From a virus, in IMG/VR virus record IMGVR_UViG_3300008954_000093, positions 1 to 43,101 of that record: a DNA stretch of 43,101 bases; one strand, given 5' to 3'. The position numbers were made by a program, and so were the translations under genes. The notes under the pieces were generated by a model. That model was not told the DNA's origin. It searched no databases and saw only the letters and a program-made list of their open reading frames with translations. Below are positions 4,988 to 21,794 of this stretch, one piece after another (position 1 is the stretch's first letter; every line of letters starts with the position of its first letter).

Positions 4988-5450
4988 TCTGACAGTGGAA
5001 AAGTCAGATCTCGTCCCTATCTTAAAAAAGGTGTGCATCAACTGGGATGCTGCCACGGGCGGTCCTCCGTTCAAGGAACGGTGTTCATTATGGTGGAAGT
5101 TCCTTGAAGACTTGTCAGCCGATTCAGTGAATGAAGCAGTTGACCAAATAATAGTTTTGGATCAGCAGCGCCTGCCGCGGGTGGGACAGGTCAGGCGATT
5201 GGCTATTGACCTTGCGTTGGGAGATGAAATCCCGGCTGCGCCTCAGGCTTGGTCACAGTTTCGTGCTGCCATAGATGCGGCTGAATCTGGAACCAGTTTC
5301 AACAAGCCCCACGATTTGGTGGGAGAAACTATGCGTTCATTTCCCAAGAATGGTGCAGGTCTAAGAACGAATTCTGATAGAGAACTATTTCTAAAGGCTT
5401 ATGAAGCGATAGTTCTAAAGGCAGAAAGAAGCAGGTATCTAGGTGGCTGA
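4968..5450 (+). CDS. helicase-loader-like replication protein
   Basis: About 160 residues. The N-terminal half is helical and contains LPRVGQVRRLAIDLALGD and then PQAWSQFRAA, a layout seen in phage proteins placed between an initiator and the primase-helicase that are usually thought to load helicase. It overlaps the preceding gene by 20 bases and the primase-helicase by 8, as expected for coupled translation. GTG 4968 and GTG 4995 are both possible starts and neither has a good ribosome site. The loader role is inference. Confidence 0.6.
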   Translation: MKTQCSNLTVEKSDLVPILKKVCINWDAATGGPPFKERCSLWWKFLEDLSADSVNEAVDQIIVLDQQRLPRVGQVRRLAIDLALGDEIPAAPQAWSQFRAAIDAAESGTSFNKPHDLVGETMRSFPKNGAGLRTNSDRELFLKAYEAIVLKAERSRYLGG

Positions 5451-7128
5451 TAGAACACCTGAAATAGATCTCGTTCTTTCTCGTTTGAACAAGGTAACAA
5501 GTTCTGGAACCGGCTGGAACGCTGCTTGTCCCTGCCGGGGAGATGATCAAAATCCTTCCCTTACTGTTGGGTTGGGCCGTGAAGGACAGGTTCTGCTCAA
5601 TTGCCATCGTGGCGACGGCTGTGATTTTGGTCAAATTTGTGAATCCATGGGACTCAAGCCAAACGAGTTGTTTCCGGATTCAGGGGAAAAGAAGTCTAAA
5701 GGTAAAATGAAACTAGAAGATACCTACGTCTACAAGAACGCTGCCGGAGATCCGGTGATGCAAGTGCTTCGTTTCCGTGAAGACGATGGCGGGAAAACTT
5801 TCCGTCAGCAACGTTACGAAAATGGTGAATGGGTTTGGGGGACTCAGGGAATAGAAAAACCCCTGTACCGATTGCCTGAGATTATTGAGCAGATCAAAAA
5901 CGATAGGATCGTTTACGTCGTAGAGGGTGAAAAGGATGTTGCCACTCTGGAGCGACTAGGGAAGGTTGCTACCTGTAATCCCGGTGGGGCAGGAGCCGAA
6001 GGTCAAGAGAAGTGGTTGCCAAACCATACAAAGGCGTTGGCTGGAGCAAAGGTTGTCATTATTGCCGATAATGACAGACCCGGCGAGATTCACGCAAGCA
6101 ATGTTGCCGCTCAACTTCGTAAAGCCGGATCGAAGGTAAAGGTATTTAAGCCCACCCGAGGTAAGGATATTTCGGATCACATCGGATCCGGTTTGGAACT
6201 TTCAGATCTTGAGATTGTGGCAGGTGAGATCCGTGACGAGTTCACGAACTTTGTCGAATCGCTCATGGATCTAGACCACAGTCTCCCACTGGCTCAACGG
6301 GTCAACAAGGCTCAACGATTACTGGACGGTTTCAATGTCGATAACTCCTTGGAGGAACCGGGGCGACTGGTTGATTGGGCAACCCTGCTGCAAGAGGAAG
6401 CCAGTGACCAATATGAATGGTTGATCCCTCACCTGTTGGAACGTCAAGAACGGGTCATCGTTGTTGCAGCGGAGGGAGTTGGGAAAACCTTCCTAGCAAG
6501 ACAAGTTGCGTTAATGGCGGCAGCAGGGATTCATCCATTCAAACGAGACAAGATGCCTCCGATAAAGACCTTGTTTATCGACTTGGAAAACCCTGAACGA
6601 ATCATTCGCAGGACAGCCCGTCGCATCTACCATCGGATCGACATGGTAGGGAAGGCGAAAGAGATGGAAGCCAATCTCGTCGTAAAACCCGACGGACTGG
6701 ATCTGCTCAAGGTTGAGGACCGCAACAAACTTATTGGTTGGATTGATGAGACTCAACCAGACCTACTGGTTTTGGGTCCGCTGTACAAAGCGTTCTTGGA
6801 TCCGGGTGGACGTACCTCTGAATCGGTAACTACAGAAGTGGCAAAGTTTTTTGATTACATCCGATATGAATATGATTGCGCTCTCTGGTTGGAACATCAT
6901 GCCCCATTGGGGTCAGGTACCAGCAGGGATTTGAGGCCGTTTGGTTCAGCCGTTTGGAGTCGATGGTCTGAGTTCGGTATTGCTATCAGCCCTGACCCGA
7001 CAGATCCCAACACAATGGAAGTCAATCATTACCGTGGAATGAGAGATCAGCGGGAATGGCCGGTTCGGATGCGTCGTGGCAACGACGATGAGTGGCCGTT
7101 TATTGTTCTTGAATTCACCACTATGTGA
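5443..7128 (+). CDS. primase-helicase fusion
   Basis: A 561-residue bifunctional replication protein. Residues 29-60 carry a zinc-binding primase-type finger (C29, C31, then C54-H55 and C60). A TOPRIM domain follows, with VVEGEKD (Glu161) and VVIIADND (Asp209, Asp211), which binds metal and makes primers. The C-terminal half is a RecA-like ATPase. Walker A is AAEGVGKTF (Lys348), and Walker B is in PDLLVLGPLYK (about 440-449). Together it should prime and unwind at the phage fork. It starts at GTG 5443, overlapping the upstream gene by 8 bases. The ATPase half resembles RepA/AAA_25-type helicases more than classic DnaB. It is followed 9 bases later by whiB. Confidence 0.9.
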   Translation: MADRTPEIDLVLSRLNKVTSSGTGWNAACPCRGDDQNPSLTVGLGREGQVLLNCHRGDGCDFGQICESMGLKPNELFPDSGEKKSKGKMKLEDTYVYKNAAGDPVMQVLRFREDDGGKTFRQQRYENGEWVWGTQGIEKPLYRLPEIIEQIKNDRIVYVVEGEKDVATLERLGKVATCNPGGAGAEGQEKWLPNHTKALAGAKVVIIADNDRPGEIHASNVAAQLRKAGSKVKVFKPTRGKDISDHIGSGLELSDLEIVAGEIRDEFTNFVESLMDLDHSLPLAQRVNKAQRLLDGFNVDNSLEEPGRLVDWATLLQEEASDQYEWLIPHLLERQERVIVVAAEGVGKTFLARQVALMAAAGIHPFKRDKMPPIKTLFIDLENPERIIRRTARRIYHRIDMVGKAKEMEANLVVKPDGLDLLKVEDRNKLIGWIDETQPDLLVLGPLYKAFLDPGGRTSESVTTEVAKFFDYIRYEYDCALWLEHHAPLGSGTSRDLRPFGSAVWSRWSEFGIAISPDPTDPNTMEVNHYRGMRDQREWPVRMRRGNDDEWPFIVLEFTTM

Positions 7129-7137
7129 GGGGTCGCT

Positions 7138-7434
7138 ATGGAAAATGTTAGCGGTATTGACGATTGGATGAAGGGTGCGGCGTGTCGGGATCAGGACACT
7201 GCCGACTTTTTCATCCTTCGTGGTGACCCGCAGCAGCGGGTAAAAAGAATTCGGGCGTATGCAATTTGTAGAGGTTGTCCGGTGAAGCGAGACTGCCTTG
7301 ACTACGCCATCGTCAACCACGAACTAGGCATATGGGGTGGGACGACCGACAGAGAGCGGAGGATTATCCGCAGAAATTGGACACCACTCAGCGAGAAACG
7401 GGCGAAGGTGAAGGGGTACTCGCAGTTCGCATAG
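7138..7434 (+). CDS. WhiB-family iron-sulfur transcription regulator
   Basis: This 98-residue protein has the four WhiB cysteines C16, C44, C47 and C53 (C...CxxC...C), which hold a [4Fe-4S] cluster, and the signature turn GIWGG (64-68) followed by a basic tail (ERRIIRRN, KRAKVKG). WhiB proteins are restricted to actinobacteria and their phages. They bind the primary sigma factor and redirect transcription, so this gene probably helps take over host or phage promoters. It is the last cistron of the rightward replication operon. Its 3' end overlaps a leftward zinc-ribbon gene by 47 bases. Confidence 0.95.
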   Translation: MENVSGIDDWMKGAACRDQDTADFFILRGDPQQRVKRIRAYAICRGCPVKRDCLDYAIVNHELGIWGGTTDRERRIIRRNWTPLSEKRAKVKGYSQFA

Positions 7435-11671: not shown

Positions 11672-11707
11672 AAAGGGGCGGGTCGGACTTCCGGCCCGCC
11701 CCTTTTT
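11672..11707. terminator. bidirectional intrinsic terminator
   Basis: AAAGGGGCGGG (11672-11682) pairs with CCCGCCCCTTT across a short loop and is followed by TTTTT. The complement also ends in a T run, so it can stop both converging transcripts: the SNF2 gene (ends 11601) and the ParB-like gene (ends 11706). Confidence 0.9.
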
Positions 11708-12218
11708 ATGCGTCTGGCGTAGGCGGTCGCTCTATACTGAAATCTTCACTGGCCGTGGATTCGATAGGGATCCACGCCTTGCTGTAAGAATGCTCTGAAA
11801 CTTTCCTCTTCTTGACGAGGGATCCATCCAGCAGCACATCCAGTTCATCTATTTTCATATTGAATGAATTCAAGATGACCTGTTCGTCCATGGCTACGCT
11901 CAATAGACGAATCGTTTTACTGAGACGATGTGGGACAATCTCTCCTCTGGCCCTGTTGAGTTGGATGTGAAGCATCATTGCTTCTGTCTTTCCACAATCG
12001 CGCCTTTGAACGGGAATCTTTTTAAGACCCAGCGACTGTGCGGCGACCCAGCGGGCGAAACCGTCGATGATGGTGCCATCTGTCATAGTGAGAATTGGAT
12101 TGATCATTCCGTATTCTTCTATAGACTTCATCAGCCCAATCAGGTTGGGTTTTAGAATATGAGTGGTTCTCCAGTCGGGAACCTTGAGGTTTTCCGTTTT
12201 GAGAAGTTCCAAGTTCAT
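11706..12218 (-). CDS. ParB/sulfiredoxin-fold protein (IbrB/YbdM-like)
   Basis: A 170-residue protein with a ParB N-terminal-like domain: LKPNLIGLMKSIEEYGMINPI, then TIIDGFARWVAAQSLGLKKIPV. The usual G(E/N)xR turn is replaced by DGFARW. It overlaps the upstream PAPS-reductase-like gene by 4 bases (ATGA). That pairing mirrors the known IbrA/IbrB and YbdN/YbdM couples, in which a PAPS-reductase-like protein and a ParB-like protein are encoded together. ParB-fold domains can hydrolyse nucleoside triphosphates. A role in chromosome partition is unlikely, because no ParA is present. The pair may modify nucleic acid or act in regulation; this is inference. Confidence 0.75.
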   Translation of the reverse strand: MNLELLKTENLKVPDWRTTHILKPNLIGLMKSIEEYGMINPILTMTDGTIIDGFARWVAAQSLGLKKIPVQRRDCGKTEAMMLHIQLNRARGEIVPHRLSKTIRLLSVAMDEQVILNSFNMKIDELDVLLDGSLVKKRKVSEHSYSKAWIPIESTASEDFSIERPPTPDA

Positions 12219-14821: not shown

Positions 14822-15049
14822 GTGAGTAATTCAGATTCCATTCTGACTATTCGGGAACATCTGATTCAGGTCTGTATGGATTTAGTCGAAATTGGTGAAG
14901 AAGACGAGGCTGAGGTTCAAGAAGATTTTGAACAGATGGTCGATCTGATTCTTGAGTCCTTGGATTTGAAGATCACAGAAACCAAAGAGTCAGAGGACTC
15001 CACGATTTTCAACTGCACTATTCAGTTGATGTCGAACCTTCAGGACTGA
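14822..15049 (+). CDS. small acidic hypothetical protein
   Basis: A 75-residue acidic protein. GTG 14822 is chosen because GGGGAGGAG (14810-14818) lies just upstream. A longer in-frame ATG at 14765 has no such site. It is predicted to be mostly helical (VCMDLVEIGEEDEAEVQEDFEQMVDLILESLD). It is the only rightward gene inside the leftward 11.7-20 kb block, divergent from ssb and convergent with the ParB-like gene, which it overlaps by 32 bases. Function unknown. Confidence 0.65.
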   Translation: MSNSDSILTIREHLIQVCMDLVEIGEEDEAEVQEDFEQMVDLILESLDLKITETKESEDSTIFNCTIQLMSNLQD

Positions 15050-15764
15050 TGTGACGATTTAAAAAGGCTGTCACTTGCTCTGAGGTTGTGGCTAAACCTG
15101 CATAGGCTGGGTTTGCCTTCAAATATCTTAGGAACGAATACCACACCGCCTGCTGTTCAGCGTCGTTGAATACCAAAGTGTATTGAACCACTGTTTTGGC
15201 CCCAGCAGAACCGGTGGCTGTAGCGCCTTGGGTCACTAAAGACCTCATCGTCTCTTCGTCTGCTTCCGTTGGAGGCGGAGCGATCAGGGTCGGAGCGGTC
15301 CATCCGTCGTTGGATTCCACGGCAGATTCTGCTCCAGCAGCCGGGGTTGAAATGGTGGCAATCTCAAAATCATCCCAGCCAAGTTCCTCAAAGAAATCCG
15401 GCATGTCTTCCACCACCGAAATCAGCATGTCGTGGAGAAGTTCCTGATTATCTTCTCCCAACTCTGAGGTTCGATTGTCGGCCAAGGCAAACGCTATGGC
15501 CTTGTCGTGGTCGAACGGAACGTACAGCACCGCCATGTGGGTCCACCCCAATTGCTTGGCTGCCGCCAATTGGTGATTCCCGGCAATGACGGTGCCCGTG
15601 CCGTCCTCGTTATCCACGGCCACGATGGGTTTGACTTGTCCGAACTTTTTATACGAAGCCGCAATAGAAGAAATGTTTCCTTTGCGTGGGTTGTTGGGAA
15701 GCGTTTGTAATTGTTCTATCGGAACAAGAAGATTTTCCAAGTCTGGACTTACGCCATGGTTCAT
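15018..15764 (-). CDS. second ParB/sulfiredoxin-fold protein
   Basis: A 248-residue protein. The N-terminal 110 residues are a ParB-like domain: PIEQLQTLPNNPRKG, then a helix and GTVIAGNHQLAAAKQLGW, where GNHQ takes the place of the usual GExR turn. A Pro/Ala hinge separates it from a C-terminal domain of about 70 residues (VVQYTLVFNDAEQQAVWYSFLRYLK). This layout is frequent in phage proteins found near DNA methyltransferases. It differs clearly from the other ParB-like protein at 11706-12218. It overlaps the upstream gene by 4 bases. Confidence 0.75.
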   Translation of the reverse strand: MNHGVSPDLENLLVPIEQLQTLPNNPRKGNISSIAASYKKFGQVKPIVAVDNEDGTGTVIAGNHQLAAAKQLGWTHMAVLYVPFDHDKAIAFALADNRTSELGEDNQELLHDMLISVVEDMPDFFEELGWDDFEIATISTPAAGAESAVESNDGWTAPTLIAPPPTEADEETMRSLVTQGATATGSAGAKTVVQYTLVFNDAEQQAVWYSFLRYLKANPAYAGLATTSEQVTAFLNRHISPEGSTSTE

Positions 15765-18901: not shown

Positions 18902-19545
18902 CAGTAGGTTTCCTCCTCTTCTACATATTCGGCATCCAACGACAGTCGAATGACCTCTACTTGACATTTGGCGAACAGGTCGGAATCCATGTGTCGGTTG
19001 GGCTTACTCTCACCCGGAACGTTCTCAGCGAACCATGTACGGAATAGGTTTTTCTTGGCGTCGTCCAAAGATCGGAAATTTTCAGCAAAAACCTGCCAAT
19101 GATCTCCCTCTATTGGATAAGACTCTTCCAACTCCAACGTCAAGGCTTCTTCGCTTCGTGCCAGATGCAAGGCAATGCCAAGACCTTGACACGCCTTCTT
19201 GAAGGCATCGCTGGTTGCAATCTTGAAATCGTTTCCAAGATCCATCACCCCGCCGCCCTTGAGCATCTTGATTTTGGTTCCGCCATATGCTTCCTTAACG
19301 GCAGTTACTCCATCGACAGAAGCGACAACCCGAACATGAGAAATCACATGCTCTTTGTATTCGGGCTGGACATGGCACTTAAGAACTTCGTAGTTCCATC
19401 CGCCCGTACCAAGCACCTTGTTCAACCGGGCGATGTATTCCGCCACGGCGACGTAGTCAAAGTTGCGCCCCCCAAGAGAGCGCTGATAAATAAGTGTCTC
19501 GTCAAACGGTTCTGCTAGTTGATCGGCTTGCGACTTCTCAGCCAT
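18901..19545 (-). CDS. Rad52-like single-strand annealing protein
   Basis: A 214-residue protein with the Rad52/Sak-type core: FDYVAVAEYIARLNKVLGTGGWNY, then HVRVVASVDGVTAVKEAYGGTKIK, and DLGNDFKIATSDAFKKACQGLGI. That pattern is seen in phage annealases that pair complementary single strands. The C-terminal third is acidic. ATG 19545 (MAEKSQ) is chosen because AGGAG lies about 8 bases upstream. With SSB and the Cas4/RecB-like nuclease it forms a complete single-strand annealing recombination module. Confidence 0.85.
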   Translation of the reverse strand: MAEKSQADQLAEPFDETLIYQRSLGGRNFDYVAVAEYIARLNKVLGTGGWNYEVLKCHVQPEYKEHVISHVRVVASVDGVTAVKEAYGGTKIKMLKGGGVMDLGNDFKIATSDAFKKACQGLGIALHLARSEEALTLELEESYPIEGDHWQVFAENFRSLDDAKKNLFRTWFAENVPGESKPNRHMDSDLFAKCQVEVIRLSLDAEYVEEEETY

Positions 19546-20032
19546 TCTCATTACTCCTATAGATAAGGTTCGTATTCGGTTCTCCGACATCGCAATACTC
19601 GTCGGCATCAATTCCTAAATCACGCAAAGCCTGCACCCTCCAATAAGAGACGGCTCCGTATTGCAGCAACTCCTTGATCATCTGTCGGGGAGTTTTGGTT
19701 ATCTCTCCAGTGTCCATGTCGATAGCGGTGTCAGAAATTCGTTGAGCGACCAGTTCCGCCAATTTGTCATGGTCCCACTTTTTGCGCGGCGCACCAGTTT
19801 TGGTTTCCATGTTGAACTGTTGAGCGTGAAACGGGCTTCGATCCCAATCGGAATCCAACAGGATTGTCTTGGCCTCTTCCTGCAAAGAAGCGATAATTTT
19901 TTTTGCCTCAGACAGTATGAACCCCAAATGCATCAAACGGTAAATTCGTTCCGGGTCTTCAGTCGTCTTCTCCAAGTGGACAGAGTCGTCCAACTTGTTT
20001 AGCATTTCCGAAAGTTCCTCTTGGATCCCCAC
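19538..20032 (-). CDS. hypothetical protein heading the recombination operon
   Basis: A 164-residue protein starting at GTG 20032 behind AGGAGAGG, downstream of the promoter at 20062-20090. An in-frame GTG at 20071 would lie before the predicted transcript start. It is helical and acidic in the N-terminal half (MLNKLDDSVHLEKTTEDPERIYRLMHLGFILSEAKKI, seen in pieces). WDHDKLAELVAQRISD and RVQALRDLGIDADEYC follow. It overlaps the annealing-protein start by 8 bases. I do not recognise a family. Position suggests a recombination accessory factor. Confidence 0.6.
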   Translation of the reverse strand: MGIQEELSEMLNKLDDSVHLEKTTEDPERIYRLMHLGFILSEAKKIIASLQEEAKTILLDSDWDRSPFHAQQFNMETKTGAPRKKWDHDKLAELVAQRISDTAIDMDTGEITKTPRQMIKELLQYGAVSYWRVQALRDLGIDADEYCDVGEPNTNLIYRSNENG

Positions 20033-20061
20033 GGGTTCCTCTCCTAGTAGTAGTTGAAAAC

Positions 20062-20090
20062 AAGATAGCACAGTGGTGAGACAAGCGCAA
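20062..20090 (-). promoter_or_regulatory. sigma70-type promoter for recombination operon
   Basis: On the minus strand TTGCGC (20090-20085), a 17-bp spacer and TATCTT (20067-20062) precede the gene starting at 20032. The implied start is near 20055 and leaves a short leader with the AGGAGAGG site. Confidence 0.5.
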
Positions 20091-20177
20091 CCGGCGGGTG
20101 GGCGAACGATTTTTCGCGTTTTTACTAATGTACCTTTTAAGTAGTAATACTTAACAAGTAAGAGAATCGTTACTCTG

Positions 20178-20451
20178 GGAGCAGGAGGGCGAGAGTTCTT
20201 GGCCCTCCAAGCGGAGAGCCAAGATTTACTCCGGTCACAGTCGGACTGTCGTAAATGGCACCTTGCGCTTTGAACAGAAGCGGTCGGTCAGCGGGCATCC
20301 GCACTTCATCCGATTTCGTTCTGGTACTGGTGCTGACTGCTGCCGAGTTCCACCATGAAGTGTAGGTCAGTGCGCCCTACCACTGGGCGTGAAAATTCCA
20401 AGCCCCTCTAACGGGCGAACGACGCTGGTCAGGCGACGCCGGGGAACCGGA
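20178..20451 (-). ncRNA. candidate structured RNA beside terminase
   Basis: No confident gene lies between 20091 and 20489, yet the minus-strand transcript from the promoter at 20458-20486 would fold strongly. Helices visible by eye are: 20373-20377 with 20385-20389 (5 bp, 7-base loop); 20302-20309 with 20355-20362 (8 bp, perfect); 20287-20292 with 20332-20337 (6 bp), which crosses the 8-bp helix and so makes a pseudoknot; 20266-20270 with 20278-20282 (5 bp, 7-base loop); 20224-20229 with 20251-20256 (6 bp) enclosing 20237-20240 with 20246-20249; and 20198-20208 with 20213-20223 (11 bp, complete only if U-G is allowed on the minus strand). I recognise no known RNA class. Competing explanation: short coding frames on the same strand. 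Confidence 0.45.
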
Positions 20452-20457
20452 AGGCAG

Positions 20458-20486
20458 AACATATCCCCGTCGCTGGAAGATGTCAA
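20458..20486 (-). promoter_or_regulatory. near-consensus promoter just after terminase
   Basis: TTGACA (20486-20481), 17 bp, then TATGTT (20463-20458) on the minus strand, starting 4 bases beyond the terminase stop. Transcription would begin near 20451. A strong dedicated promoter with no obvious gene downstream is the main argument for a non-coding transcript here. Confidence 0.65.
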
Positions 20487-20489
20487 GCC

Positions 20490-21794
20490 CTAGATAATAA
20501 TTGACACCCGGCCACGCTGGCGATGACCCAGACCGGCCACCTCGTTGAAGCAAGAAGAGGTGGCATCTACCTGATCGTCGTGCCATGCCGCCTCTGGGAA
20601 GGTTGCCACTTCGTCAAGGAAGTCTGAAATGTATGGTCCTCTGACAAGCCTGACGTTTCCGTTGGCAACCGCAGCAGACAGAGGTTTGGCACGGGTAACT
20701 TTGTCGCCCGTGGAACGAATACCGATGAAGTCGATGCCGGGTAGGACGTAGCGGGCGTATTGGTCGATCAGGTTTTTGCCGCTGCTCCCCGGCTCCTGTT
20801 CCATCCGGACGGCGACATGAGGACCGTCCAGTTGGGCAGTCTGTGCGATTAGTTTTTCTATGTCCGCTCCGTTCTTCCTGCACCTCTGGATGTCGATGAT
20901 GTAGAACACCCCTTGGTCGAATGCTCCAAGGACACCGACGGTCCAGTCGGGGTCCGGGTTCACATGGGATGGTTCGGTGGCAGCAAGATCCCAGAAGCGG
21001 CACCACTCAGGGTCCACGAAATCGGGAAGGTCGCTTGGCTCCATGATGACAAAGTTTTCACGGTCGAACAGGCTTCCTGAGGACACCGCCCACCAGTCGC
21101 CGTTTTCCAATCGTTGACGTTCGATGGGGTCGATTTCTTGCAGGGCACGCCGATACGACTCAGGGTCGATGCCGGGGTTGTCGTCTAGGAAACTGGGAAC
21201 AAAGATTCGATCAGGACTTTTTTCTCCCTCTTCGATGAAACGTTGTCTTACCCAGTTAGGCGCAGGGTTGGATGCTGCACGCATTCTTAGTGGTACTTTA
21301 GAGAGTTCGCCAGAGTTCGGTTTACGCAACCGAGAGAAAAGGTAACGATAATCAAATTCACGAATTTCAGTTACTTCGTCCATTCCAATGAACTGGAATT
21401 CTGAAGACTTGTAACGAAGGTAGTCATTTTGATTGTTTAGATAACCGAAAGTGACTCTTGCACCAGATGGAAAGGTGGCTACATAGGTGGAGCCATTCCA
21501 CCTGATCTCGTCGTACTCTTTAACCCACGAAAGAAATCTGTCCATGAGTGCGCCGGGAAGTGCGAGGTCGGCATATGTGCGTCGGAAAAGAATGGCGGAG
21601 TAGTCGGGAACGTCAACGTATTGGAGAGCAGCCATTAAAAGTGCAGAGGATTTTCCGCCACCAGCGGCTCCACCAAAGAGTCCTTCAAGGTGCCCAGCGC
21701 GCAAAAAGGTCTTTTGAGTCAGTGATGGGGTTTCTGGGCAAAAATGTGGTTCCTTCGGTTGAAGGAACTCATAGATGTCGGACCAATCTTTCAT
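20490..21794 (-). CDS. terL: terminase large subunit
   Basis: A 434-residue packaging motor. The ATPase has Walker A GGAAGGGKSS (residues 41-50, Lys48), Walker B FQFIGMDE and a following coupling stretch (ASNPAPNW). The C-terminal RNase H-like nuclease is marked by FWDLAATEP (first Asp), GVFYIIDIQR and the closing HDDQVDA. It pumps DNA through the portal encoded at 22016-24241 and cuts it. The gene points leftward, opposite to the portal and all other structural genes, which is unusual. No small terminase was recognised. Its ribosome site is weak. Confidence 0.95.
   Translation of the reverse strand: MKDWSDIYEFLQPKEPHFCPETPSLTQKTFLRAGHLEGLFGGAAGGGKSSALLMAALQYVDVPDYSAILFRRTYADLALPGALMDRFLSWVKEYDEIRWNGSTYVATFPSGARVTFGYLNNQNDYLRYKSSEFQFIGMDEVTEIREFDYRYLFSRLRKPNSGELSKVPLRMRAASNPAPNWVRQRFIEEGEKSPDRIFVPSFLDDNPGIDPESYRRALQEIDPIERQRLENGDWWAVSSGSLFDRENFVIMEPSDLPDFVDPEWCRFWDLAATEPSHVNPDPDWTVGVLGAFDQGVFYIIDIQRCRKNGADIEKLIAQTAQLDGPHVAVRMEQEPGSSGKNLIDQYARYVLPGIDFIGIRSTGDKVTRAKPLSAAVANGNVRLVRGPYISDFLDEVATFPEAAWHDDQVDATSSCFNEVAGLGHRQRGRVSIII

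Follow-up and report, generated by a model that had tools for sequence, protein, structure and literature searches.

A promoter and a gene-free stretch follow terL

The window analyzed here, 43,101 nucleotides of DNA from a marine phage (IMG/VR record IMGVR_UViG_3300008954_000093), covers 43.1 kb at the start of a contig of 67,432 bases. The terminase gene terL (20490-21794, minus strand) ends in a stop codon at 20492-20490, and the -35 box of a promoter on the same strand begins 4 bases beyond it. This sigma-70-type promoter (20458-20486) consists of TTGACA at 20486-20481 and TATGTT at 20463-20458, with a spacer of 17, and matches the consensus at 10 of 12 positions; 0.3 promoter-like sites are expected per shuffled region. 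It leads into a structured non-coding RNA of ~280 nt (20170-20451, minus strand) with approximate ends, the start being placed ~7 nt past the -10 box and the end at the limit of conservation just past the last hairpin, P10. The next gene (19538-20071) lies on the same strand, starts ~100 nt after the RNA, and encodes a 177-aa protein with no family match. Leftward, the RNA heads a run of genes that includes rad52-like, exonuclease, ssb-like, and ParB-like genes.

The phage also carries a primase/helicase gene (5443-7128) and a gene for a WhiB-type regulator (7138-7434), and regulators of this type have been described in actinobacteriophages (PMC8612146). The best terL homologues are found in Actinomycetota genomes (45% identity, E = 1e-105, versus 8e-31 in Pseudomonadota), and terL itself belongs to Terminase_6-type families, not with phi29 gp16. 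Given the WhiB-type regulator and the terL homologues, the host is probably actinobacterial, and these sequence matches indicate the same phylum as that of the proven RNA origins described below. The structural region of the 67-kb contig includes a B12-dependent ribonucleotide reductase (L173:3185-5089, minus strand).

A terL search of IMG/VR yielded 35 loci, and we aligned the DNA following terL. A strongly conserved RNA-like block follows the promoter in these loci. Our comparison set comprises 24 distinct relatives, including L040 and L119 (terL 74% identical). The promoter is kept in 19 of the 24, with a spacer of 17-18, a -35 box of TTGACA or TTGACT, and a -10 box of TATGGT, TATGTT, TACGGT, or TATAGT. 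For L014 and L020, it lies upstream of the scanned stretch and is visible in the alignments of DNA after terL; in the remaining three of the 24 (L040, L119, and L073), no such promoter was found. A preliminary description of this DNA had proposed a promoter 4 bases past terL leading into about 270 bases with no confident gene. The promoter is confirmed on the minus strand, and the second proposal also holds, as no reading frame is conserved across the 24 relatives and indels between landmarks occur in all three phases; we therefore rejected a protein-coding frame.

The RNA lies directly downstream of terL in relatives of the window phage group, and the genes adjoining it in L019 and L024-L026 differ from those of the window. 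Distant terL homologues in Actinomycetota genomes showed no copy of the RNA next to them. The scan for known RNA families suggested in the preliminary description, run against all 4227 Rfam families at gathering and relaxed thresholds, gave zero matches, pRNA included, and a search of GenBank phage DNA with the 3-kb region gave no match.

The RNA folds into a conserved structure

We built a structure of 62 base pairs, in helices P0 to P10, on the alignment of 24 relatives. In this alignment, 93.5% of cells are paired, compared with 38-45% after sliding the partners 1-3 columns along, a somewhat favorable control since the structure was partly drawn from the same sequences; firmer evidence comes from two-sided changes, which occur at 22 of the 62 pairs (1-11 when slid). 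The observed covariation was reached by no shuffle. Covariance among homologous loci, which the preliminary description had named as a check, thus bears the structure out. Folding energy, the first check named there, does not: with z = -0.48 on both strands, the single sequence folds no more stably than its dinucleotide-shuffled versions.

All helices are given for the minus strand. P0 (20439-20450) is a variable 5' hairpin, 80% paired. It is followed by P1 (20420-20438), whose 7-nt loop CUGACCA is of the form CUNRCCA and whose innermost and outermost pairs covary; then, after 6 nt, by P2 (20402-20416), a GCCC/GGGC stem with the 7-nt loop GUUAGAG (GUNAGAN); and, after a further 10 nt, by P3 (20373-20389), a CGCCC/GGGCG stem with covarying versions of the CGUCC, UGCCC, and CGCUU types. 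The long stem P4 (20299-20365) covaries and is 98.5% paired. It contains the 8-bp perfect stem of the preliminary description (20362-20355 with 20309-20302), which is real and extends to 11 pairs; the 6-bp stem described as crossing it is a putative pseudoknot only. The nested stems noted there are likewise borne out by covariation in P4 and P5. Pair counts place P5a (GGUG/CACC) and P5b (ACU/AGU, elsewhere GUC/GAC) at 20329-20354, closed by the 7-nt loop CGGCAGC. P7 (20266-20282) covaries at all five pairs, and P8 (20237-20249) is weakly supported, with 78% of cells paired and no two-sided change. P9 (20198-20223) corresponds to the 11-bp stem described earlier as complete only on the minus-strand RNA; its halves (20223-20213 and 20208-20198) require U-G pairs. 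The 3' hairpin P10 (20172-20196, ACUCU/AGAGU) is again placed by pair counts.

Covariation is best in P1, P3, P4, P5b, and P7; P2 and P5a are invariant in the window phage group. G·U pairs occur at several positions, for example at columns 149/240 (24 of 24 sequences) and 329/342 (22 of 24). The opposite strand would have A·C there, and selection therefore acts on the minus-strand RNA. We conclude that this is a real, evolutionarily conserved folded RNA. The P1 and P2 loops may also form a kissing pair between UNRC and GUNA, a candidate that fits many of the members, though not every one. Two other readings, CGCCCGUCA as a mimic of the host 16S decoding site and GUNAGAN as a Leu-anticodon loop, were set aside, since the third loop position is variable and no further tRNA or rRNA features were seen.

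The 5' domain resembles that of mycobacteriophage origin RNAs

Regions of ~600 bp from the mycobacteriophages RedRock, Alma, LadyBird, Gladiator, and Et2Brutus replicate autonomously as plasmids and do not require their flanking ORFs (PMC7157519). The non-coding RNA of these prophage origins is transcribed opposite to parA, and deletion of the RNA region in Alma or LadyBird gives unstable lysogens; that work did not prove separately that the RNA itself, as opposed to its DNA, is the primer (PMC7157519). In RedRock, the P2 core lies within the tested origin region, on the strand of the RNA.

We aligned the origin RNAs, leaving out Et2Brutus. They show a P1 loop of CUUGCCA, CUAGCCA, or UUCGCCA, the 6-nt linker GUCGUC, and a P2 with the 7-nt loop GUYAGAK, and their P2 stem changes from GCCC/GGGC to GCCG/CGGC or GUCC/GGAC. 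Thus, the P2 stem that is invariant in the window phage group covaries in the origin RNAs. In an eight-sequence core set, 72 of 72 cells are paired and five of nine pairs show two-sided changes; for the full origin RNA, 94.1% of cells are paired and 17 pairs show such changes.

Models built only from RNA-type origins of extrachromosomal mycobacteriophage prophages were then compared with the window. R1 was made from eight origin RNAs of parABS phages, R2 is a hold-out of members lacking the searched GCCC-stem core, and R3 represents the full-length origin RNA. The best R1 match in the window is the RNA itself (20440-20401, minus strand; 23.1 bits, next 11.0), a score to be read against chance R1 matches of 24.3 bits in a 5.9-Mb bacterial genome and 23.5 bits in a 4.2-Mb bacterial genome, as model E-values are optimistic for GC-rich DNA. 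With R2, the RNA scored 20.2 bits (next 12.0), and with R3 it scored 20.1 bits (next 4.4) with P1, P2, and P3 aligned in register. Among the top candidates scored over three bacterial genomes (12.2 Mb), the R3 maximum was 16.8 bits, below the window RNA. The comparison carries a selection effect, since it was the search for the P2 core that led to RedRock; P1, P3, and the R2 hold-out did not depend on this search.

The R3 alignment covers P1-P3 only, and the origin 3' domain (CAUCCC plus the CGAGUAAU hairpin) is unaligned in the window RNA. No parABS cassette adjoins the window RNA. The phage encodes two different ParB-like proteins (15018-15764 and 11706-12218), 4-8 kb from the RNA, and no parA was found. 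As judged from these alignments, the predicted 5' domain of the window RNA is shared with proven RNA origins. We did not place the RNA in the RedRock family because the 3' domain is unaligned, no parABS cassette is adjacent, and Bachome, itself a parABS phage, is without the core.

The Gordonia phages McGonagall and Coeur matched the whole origin model with 37.4 and 29.8 bits (L162:2479-2666 and L163:2478-2668, respectively). Their RNA, near the right end and so far unrecognized, resembles the window RNA in its P1-P2 part. These are, however, small integrase-bearing phages, and the CGAGUAAU 3' hairpin is common to them and the mycobacteriophage origins but not to the window. A short coding sequence annotated over the match in McGonagall (gp25, 2499-2651) is probably not a gene.

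The P2 core recurs in other actinobacterial phages

Scanning IMG/VR with the P2 core TTCGCCCGTNAGANGGGC returned 91 stretches, a count that by our own estimate includes of the order of 20 chance matches. Most belong to the window phage group, and many have quite different RNA-like contexts. Because of the expected chance matches, and because some matches lie inside genes (FARQKG-like), each core-bearing group was judged separately. Matches in bacterial genomes lie mostly in coding sequence, often encoding FARQKG, and were taken as chance, with the exception of one marine Actinomycetota MAG (L129). A plasmid collection gave only scattered borderline matches and no family.

A 42-nt BLAST search of GenBank phages matched 167 records, 164 of them Mycobacterium phages. 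The mycobacteriophage matches fall at two unannotated sites: the right end of cluster A4 phages and, in RedRock-type phages, the interval that separates parA from the tail genes. In the cluster A4 phages Wile (L157) and Kampy (L160, at 50.7 kb), the core lies just after a TTGACA promoter, the early lytic promoter Pleft, in a leader region that is unannotated in the records examined. This Pleft non-coding RNA region (PMC4626039, PMC5712189) is like the window locus in being unannotated, following a TTGACA promoter, and carrying the P2 core; it differs in having another P1 and no alignable sequence elsewhere, so that the match is to the P2 core only. The Pleft region of L5 is toxic and partly essential (PMC5712189). 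We did not use these data as evidence, as the Pleft region of D29, which belongs to the same subcluster as L5, is without the core (L165, 47.8-49.1 kb); a link to the L5/D29 Pleft RNA was accordingly rejected for D29. Also present in this D29 region are a stretch resembling a tRNA T-arm, CCAGGTTCGATTCCTGG, and several copies of a promoter/stoperator-like site, TTGACAGC.

Several further occurrences of the core were recorded. Seven marine phage contigs and the Actinomycetota MAG (L037, L039, L045, L061, L064, L083, L086, and L129) carry a second core-bearing RNA family, in which an upstream stem covaries (CACATC/GATGTG, CAGACT/AGTCTG, and CATACT/AGTATG) and which sits at the GC-skew minimum in the L083 and L086 contigs. 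In two unrelated phage groups (L050/L068/L095 and L070/L072), the core hairpin pair lies directly upstream or at the start of a gene for a small secreted-looking protein; L070 scored 28.4 bits with R1. Curtobacterium phage Sunfish has an intergenic origin-core match (L164:1470-1518, 20.9 bits). One phage contig with a core-bearing RNA, L044, also contains a Pistol ribozyme at 11841-11906 (Rfam RF02679, 64.6 bits).

An AT-rich segment and a switch in GC skew adjoin the RNA

The 70 nt past the RNA have a mean AT content of 73% in the 24 relatives, compared with 42% for the RNA. All 24 are AT-rich here, and within each locus the segment falls in the top few per cent for AT content. In the window, the segment (20098-20167, minus strand; 67% AT) is a candidate region of DNA unwinding or RNA-to-DNA transition. 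A palindrome, CGAACNNNNGTTCG, lies 56-61 nt past the RNA end in 20 of the 24 relatives (L005, L008, L014, L021, and others) and is reduced by a short deletion in the window, near 20103-20112. It resembles the LexA/SOS box of Actinobacteria and Firmicutes and could serve as an operator or initiator site.

Genes to the right of the RNA have positive plus-strand GC3 skew regardless of their strand, with few exceptions (terL, +0.35, equivalent to -0.35 on its coding strand; RNR, +0.41). Genes to the left have skew close to zero or weakly negative (-0.15 for the one adjoining the RNA). The coding-strand GC3 skew of terL is negative in 19 of 19 relatives, and genes beyond the RNA average +0.08. Within 15-30 kb, the cumulative skew reaches its minimum at 20,044. 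The switch therefore lies at the RNA and not at the switch of gene orientation, and is strong on its right side and weak on its left. Two contigs from a different RNA group, G011 and G010, have their global minimum of cumulative skew 259 and 334 nt away from the core, where it coincides with divergent gene orientation. Together, the AT-rich flank and the skew switch fit an origin without proving one.

An RNA-based replication origin is the best explanation

There is strong support for a structured non-coding RNA that has its own promoter, and we regard it as a new family, a new version of a barely described kind of RNA. Its function is best explained as that of an RNA-based replication origin, consisting of the transcript and the AT-rich melting region, of an actinobacterial phage. 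The reading draws on the conserved promoter, the covarying RNA, the 5' domain held in common with proven origins, the AT-rich flank, and the skew switch. We give it a probability of about 0.5, held at that level mainly because the P2 core also follows Pleft in Kampy-type phages, a site with no demonstrated origin.

Under this model, host RNA polymerase would transcribe the RNA leftward. The transcript would fold, and its 3' part would stay paired with the AT-rich segment or deliver unwinding to it. Either the transcript end or the opened strand could then start leading-strand synthesis, and the phage primase/helicase, together with a host or phage polymerase, would extend the forks. The conserved loops CUNRCCA and GUNAGAN may bind a shared host factor or each other. 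In ColE1, RNA II similarly combines a promoter, a long folded transcript, and a downstream replication start; the likeness to the window RNA is a functional analogy only, with no match in sequence or structure seen, and no RNA I-like antisense promoter was found. The RedRock-type origins of RedRock, Alma, LadyBird, and Gladiator (PMC7157519) are closer: they too are structured non-coding RNAs without an ORF, with a P1 loop CUNRCCA, a short linker, a P2 loop GUNAGAN, and P3 at similar spacing. Unlike them, the window RNA has no match to the CGAGUAAU hairpin and lies beside terL instead of parA, in a myovirus with its own primase/helicase.

Several points count against an origin. On alignment, only the 5' domain matches proven origins, and the CGAGUAAU-containing 3' domain does not. 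A phage with its own primase/helicase may start replication by other means. The skew left of the RNA is near zero, not clearly negative. Bachome is a parABS phage without the core.

The RNA could instead act in cis at the head of the early leftward transcript, in a role like that of the HK022 put RNA, with its two 5' hairpins altering RNA polymerase to allow read-through of terminators into the genes for recombination and replication. A pair of hairpins with conserved loops does lie directly past the promoter at the head of the leftward gene run, a position compatible with cis action on RNA polymerase. The P2 core past Pleft in Kampy and Wile is likewise upstream of early genes, and an AT-rich segment with a fixed CGAACN4GTTCG box after the RNA would also be in keeping with this role. 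Nevertheless, conservation takes in nearly all of the ~280 nt, far beyond a two-hairpin element, and the genes adjoining the RNA in L019 and L024-L026 are not those of the window. Moreover, RedRock-type origin RNA is transcribed away from parA, in a region needed for plasmid replication (PMC7157519). We consider a put-like role unlikely.

Action in trans is also improbable in our assessment. Here, an abundant, stable phage RNA would divert a host factor such as RNA polymerase, an RNase, or the ribosome, as the uncharacterized abundant Pleft RNAs of cluster A mycobacteriophages might do. The RNA has its own promoter, a compact covarying fold, and invariant hairpin loops of a kind typical of factor binding, and the core does occur in the non-coding RNA region of Kampy-type phages. 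The toxic, partly essential Pleft region of L5 would be in line with such an activity, but these data are not transferable given the lack of the core in D29, and the AT-rich segment and skew switch would be left unexplained.

That the RNA is a long riboswitch-like 5' leader of the 177-aa gene is very unlikely: although that gene follows on the same strand, downstream genes vary among relatives (L019, L024-L026) where the RNA stays, and the AT-rich stretch and operator-like palindrome intervene with no conserved expression-platform hairpin. Least probable of all is the packaging role, or packaging-site RNA, which the preliminary description had raised beside a regulatory one on account of the position next to terL; replication origins are its closest relatives with a tested function, many phages carry the 5' domain at a distance from the terminase (beside parA in RedRock-type phages and in Gordonia phages, with the P2 core alone at the cluster A4 Pleft), the Terminase_6-type terL families are not known to need an RNA, and phi29 pRNA, also a phage RNA near packaging genes, differs in size and terminase type and gave no Rfam match.

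Beyond the origin reading for the window RNA, the P1/P2 loop pair may mark one class of replication-initiator RNA across many unrelated actinobacterial phages, lytic replication included, such that RNA-primed origins would be a common, unannotated strategy. Such a class would span marine myoviruses, small Gordonia phages, cluster A mycobacteriophages, and several marine groups. We offer this tentatively, as a possibility that is rather doubtful at present.

The start of DNA replication is unknown in most phages, and RNA-only origins have been reported only in a handful of mycobacteriophage prophages and with no structure given. A shared covarying domain would define the RNA-origin class structurally and tie it to marine phages and to the abundant non-coding RNA region of cluster A4 phages. 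The location and mechanism of the origin would then become testable through point mutations in the existing M. smegmatis origin plasmids.
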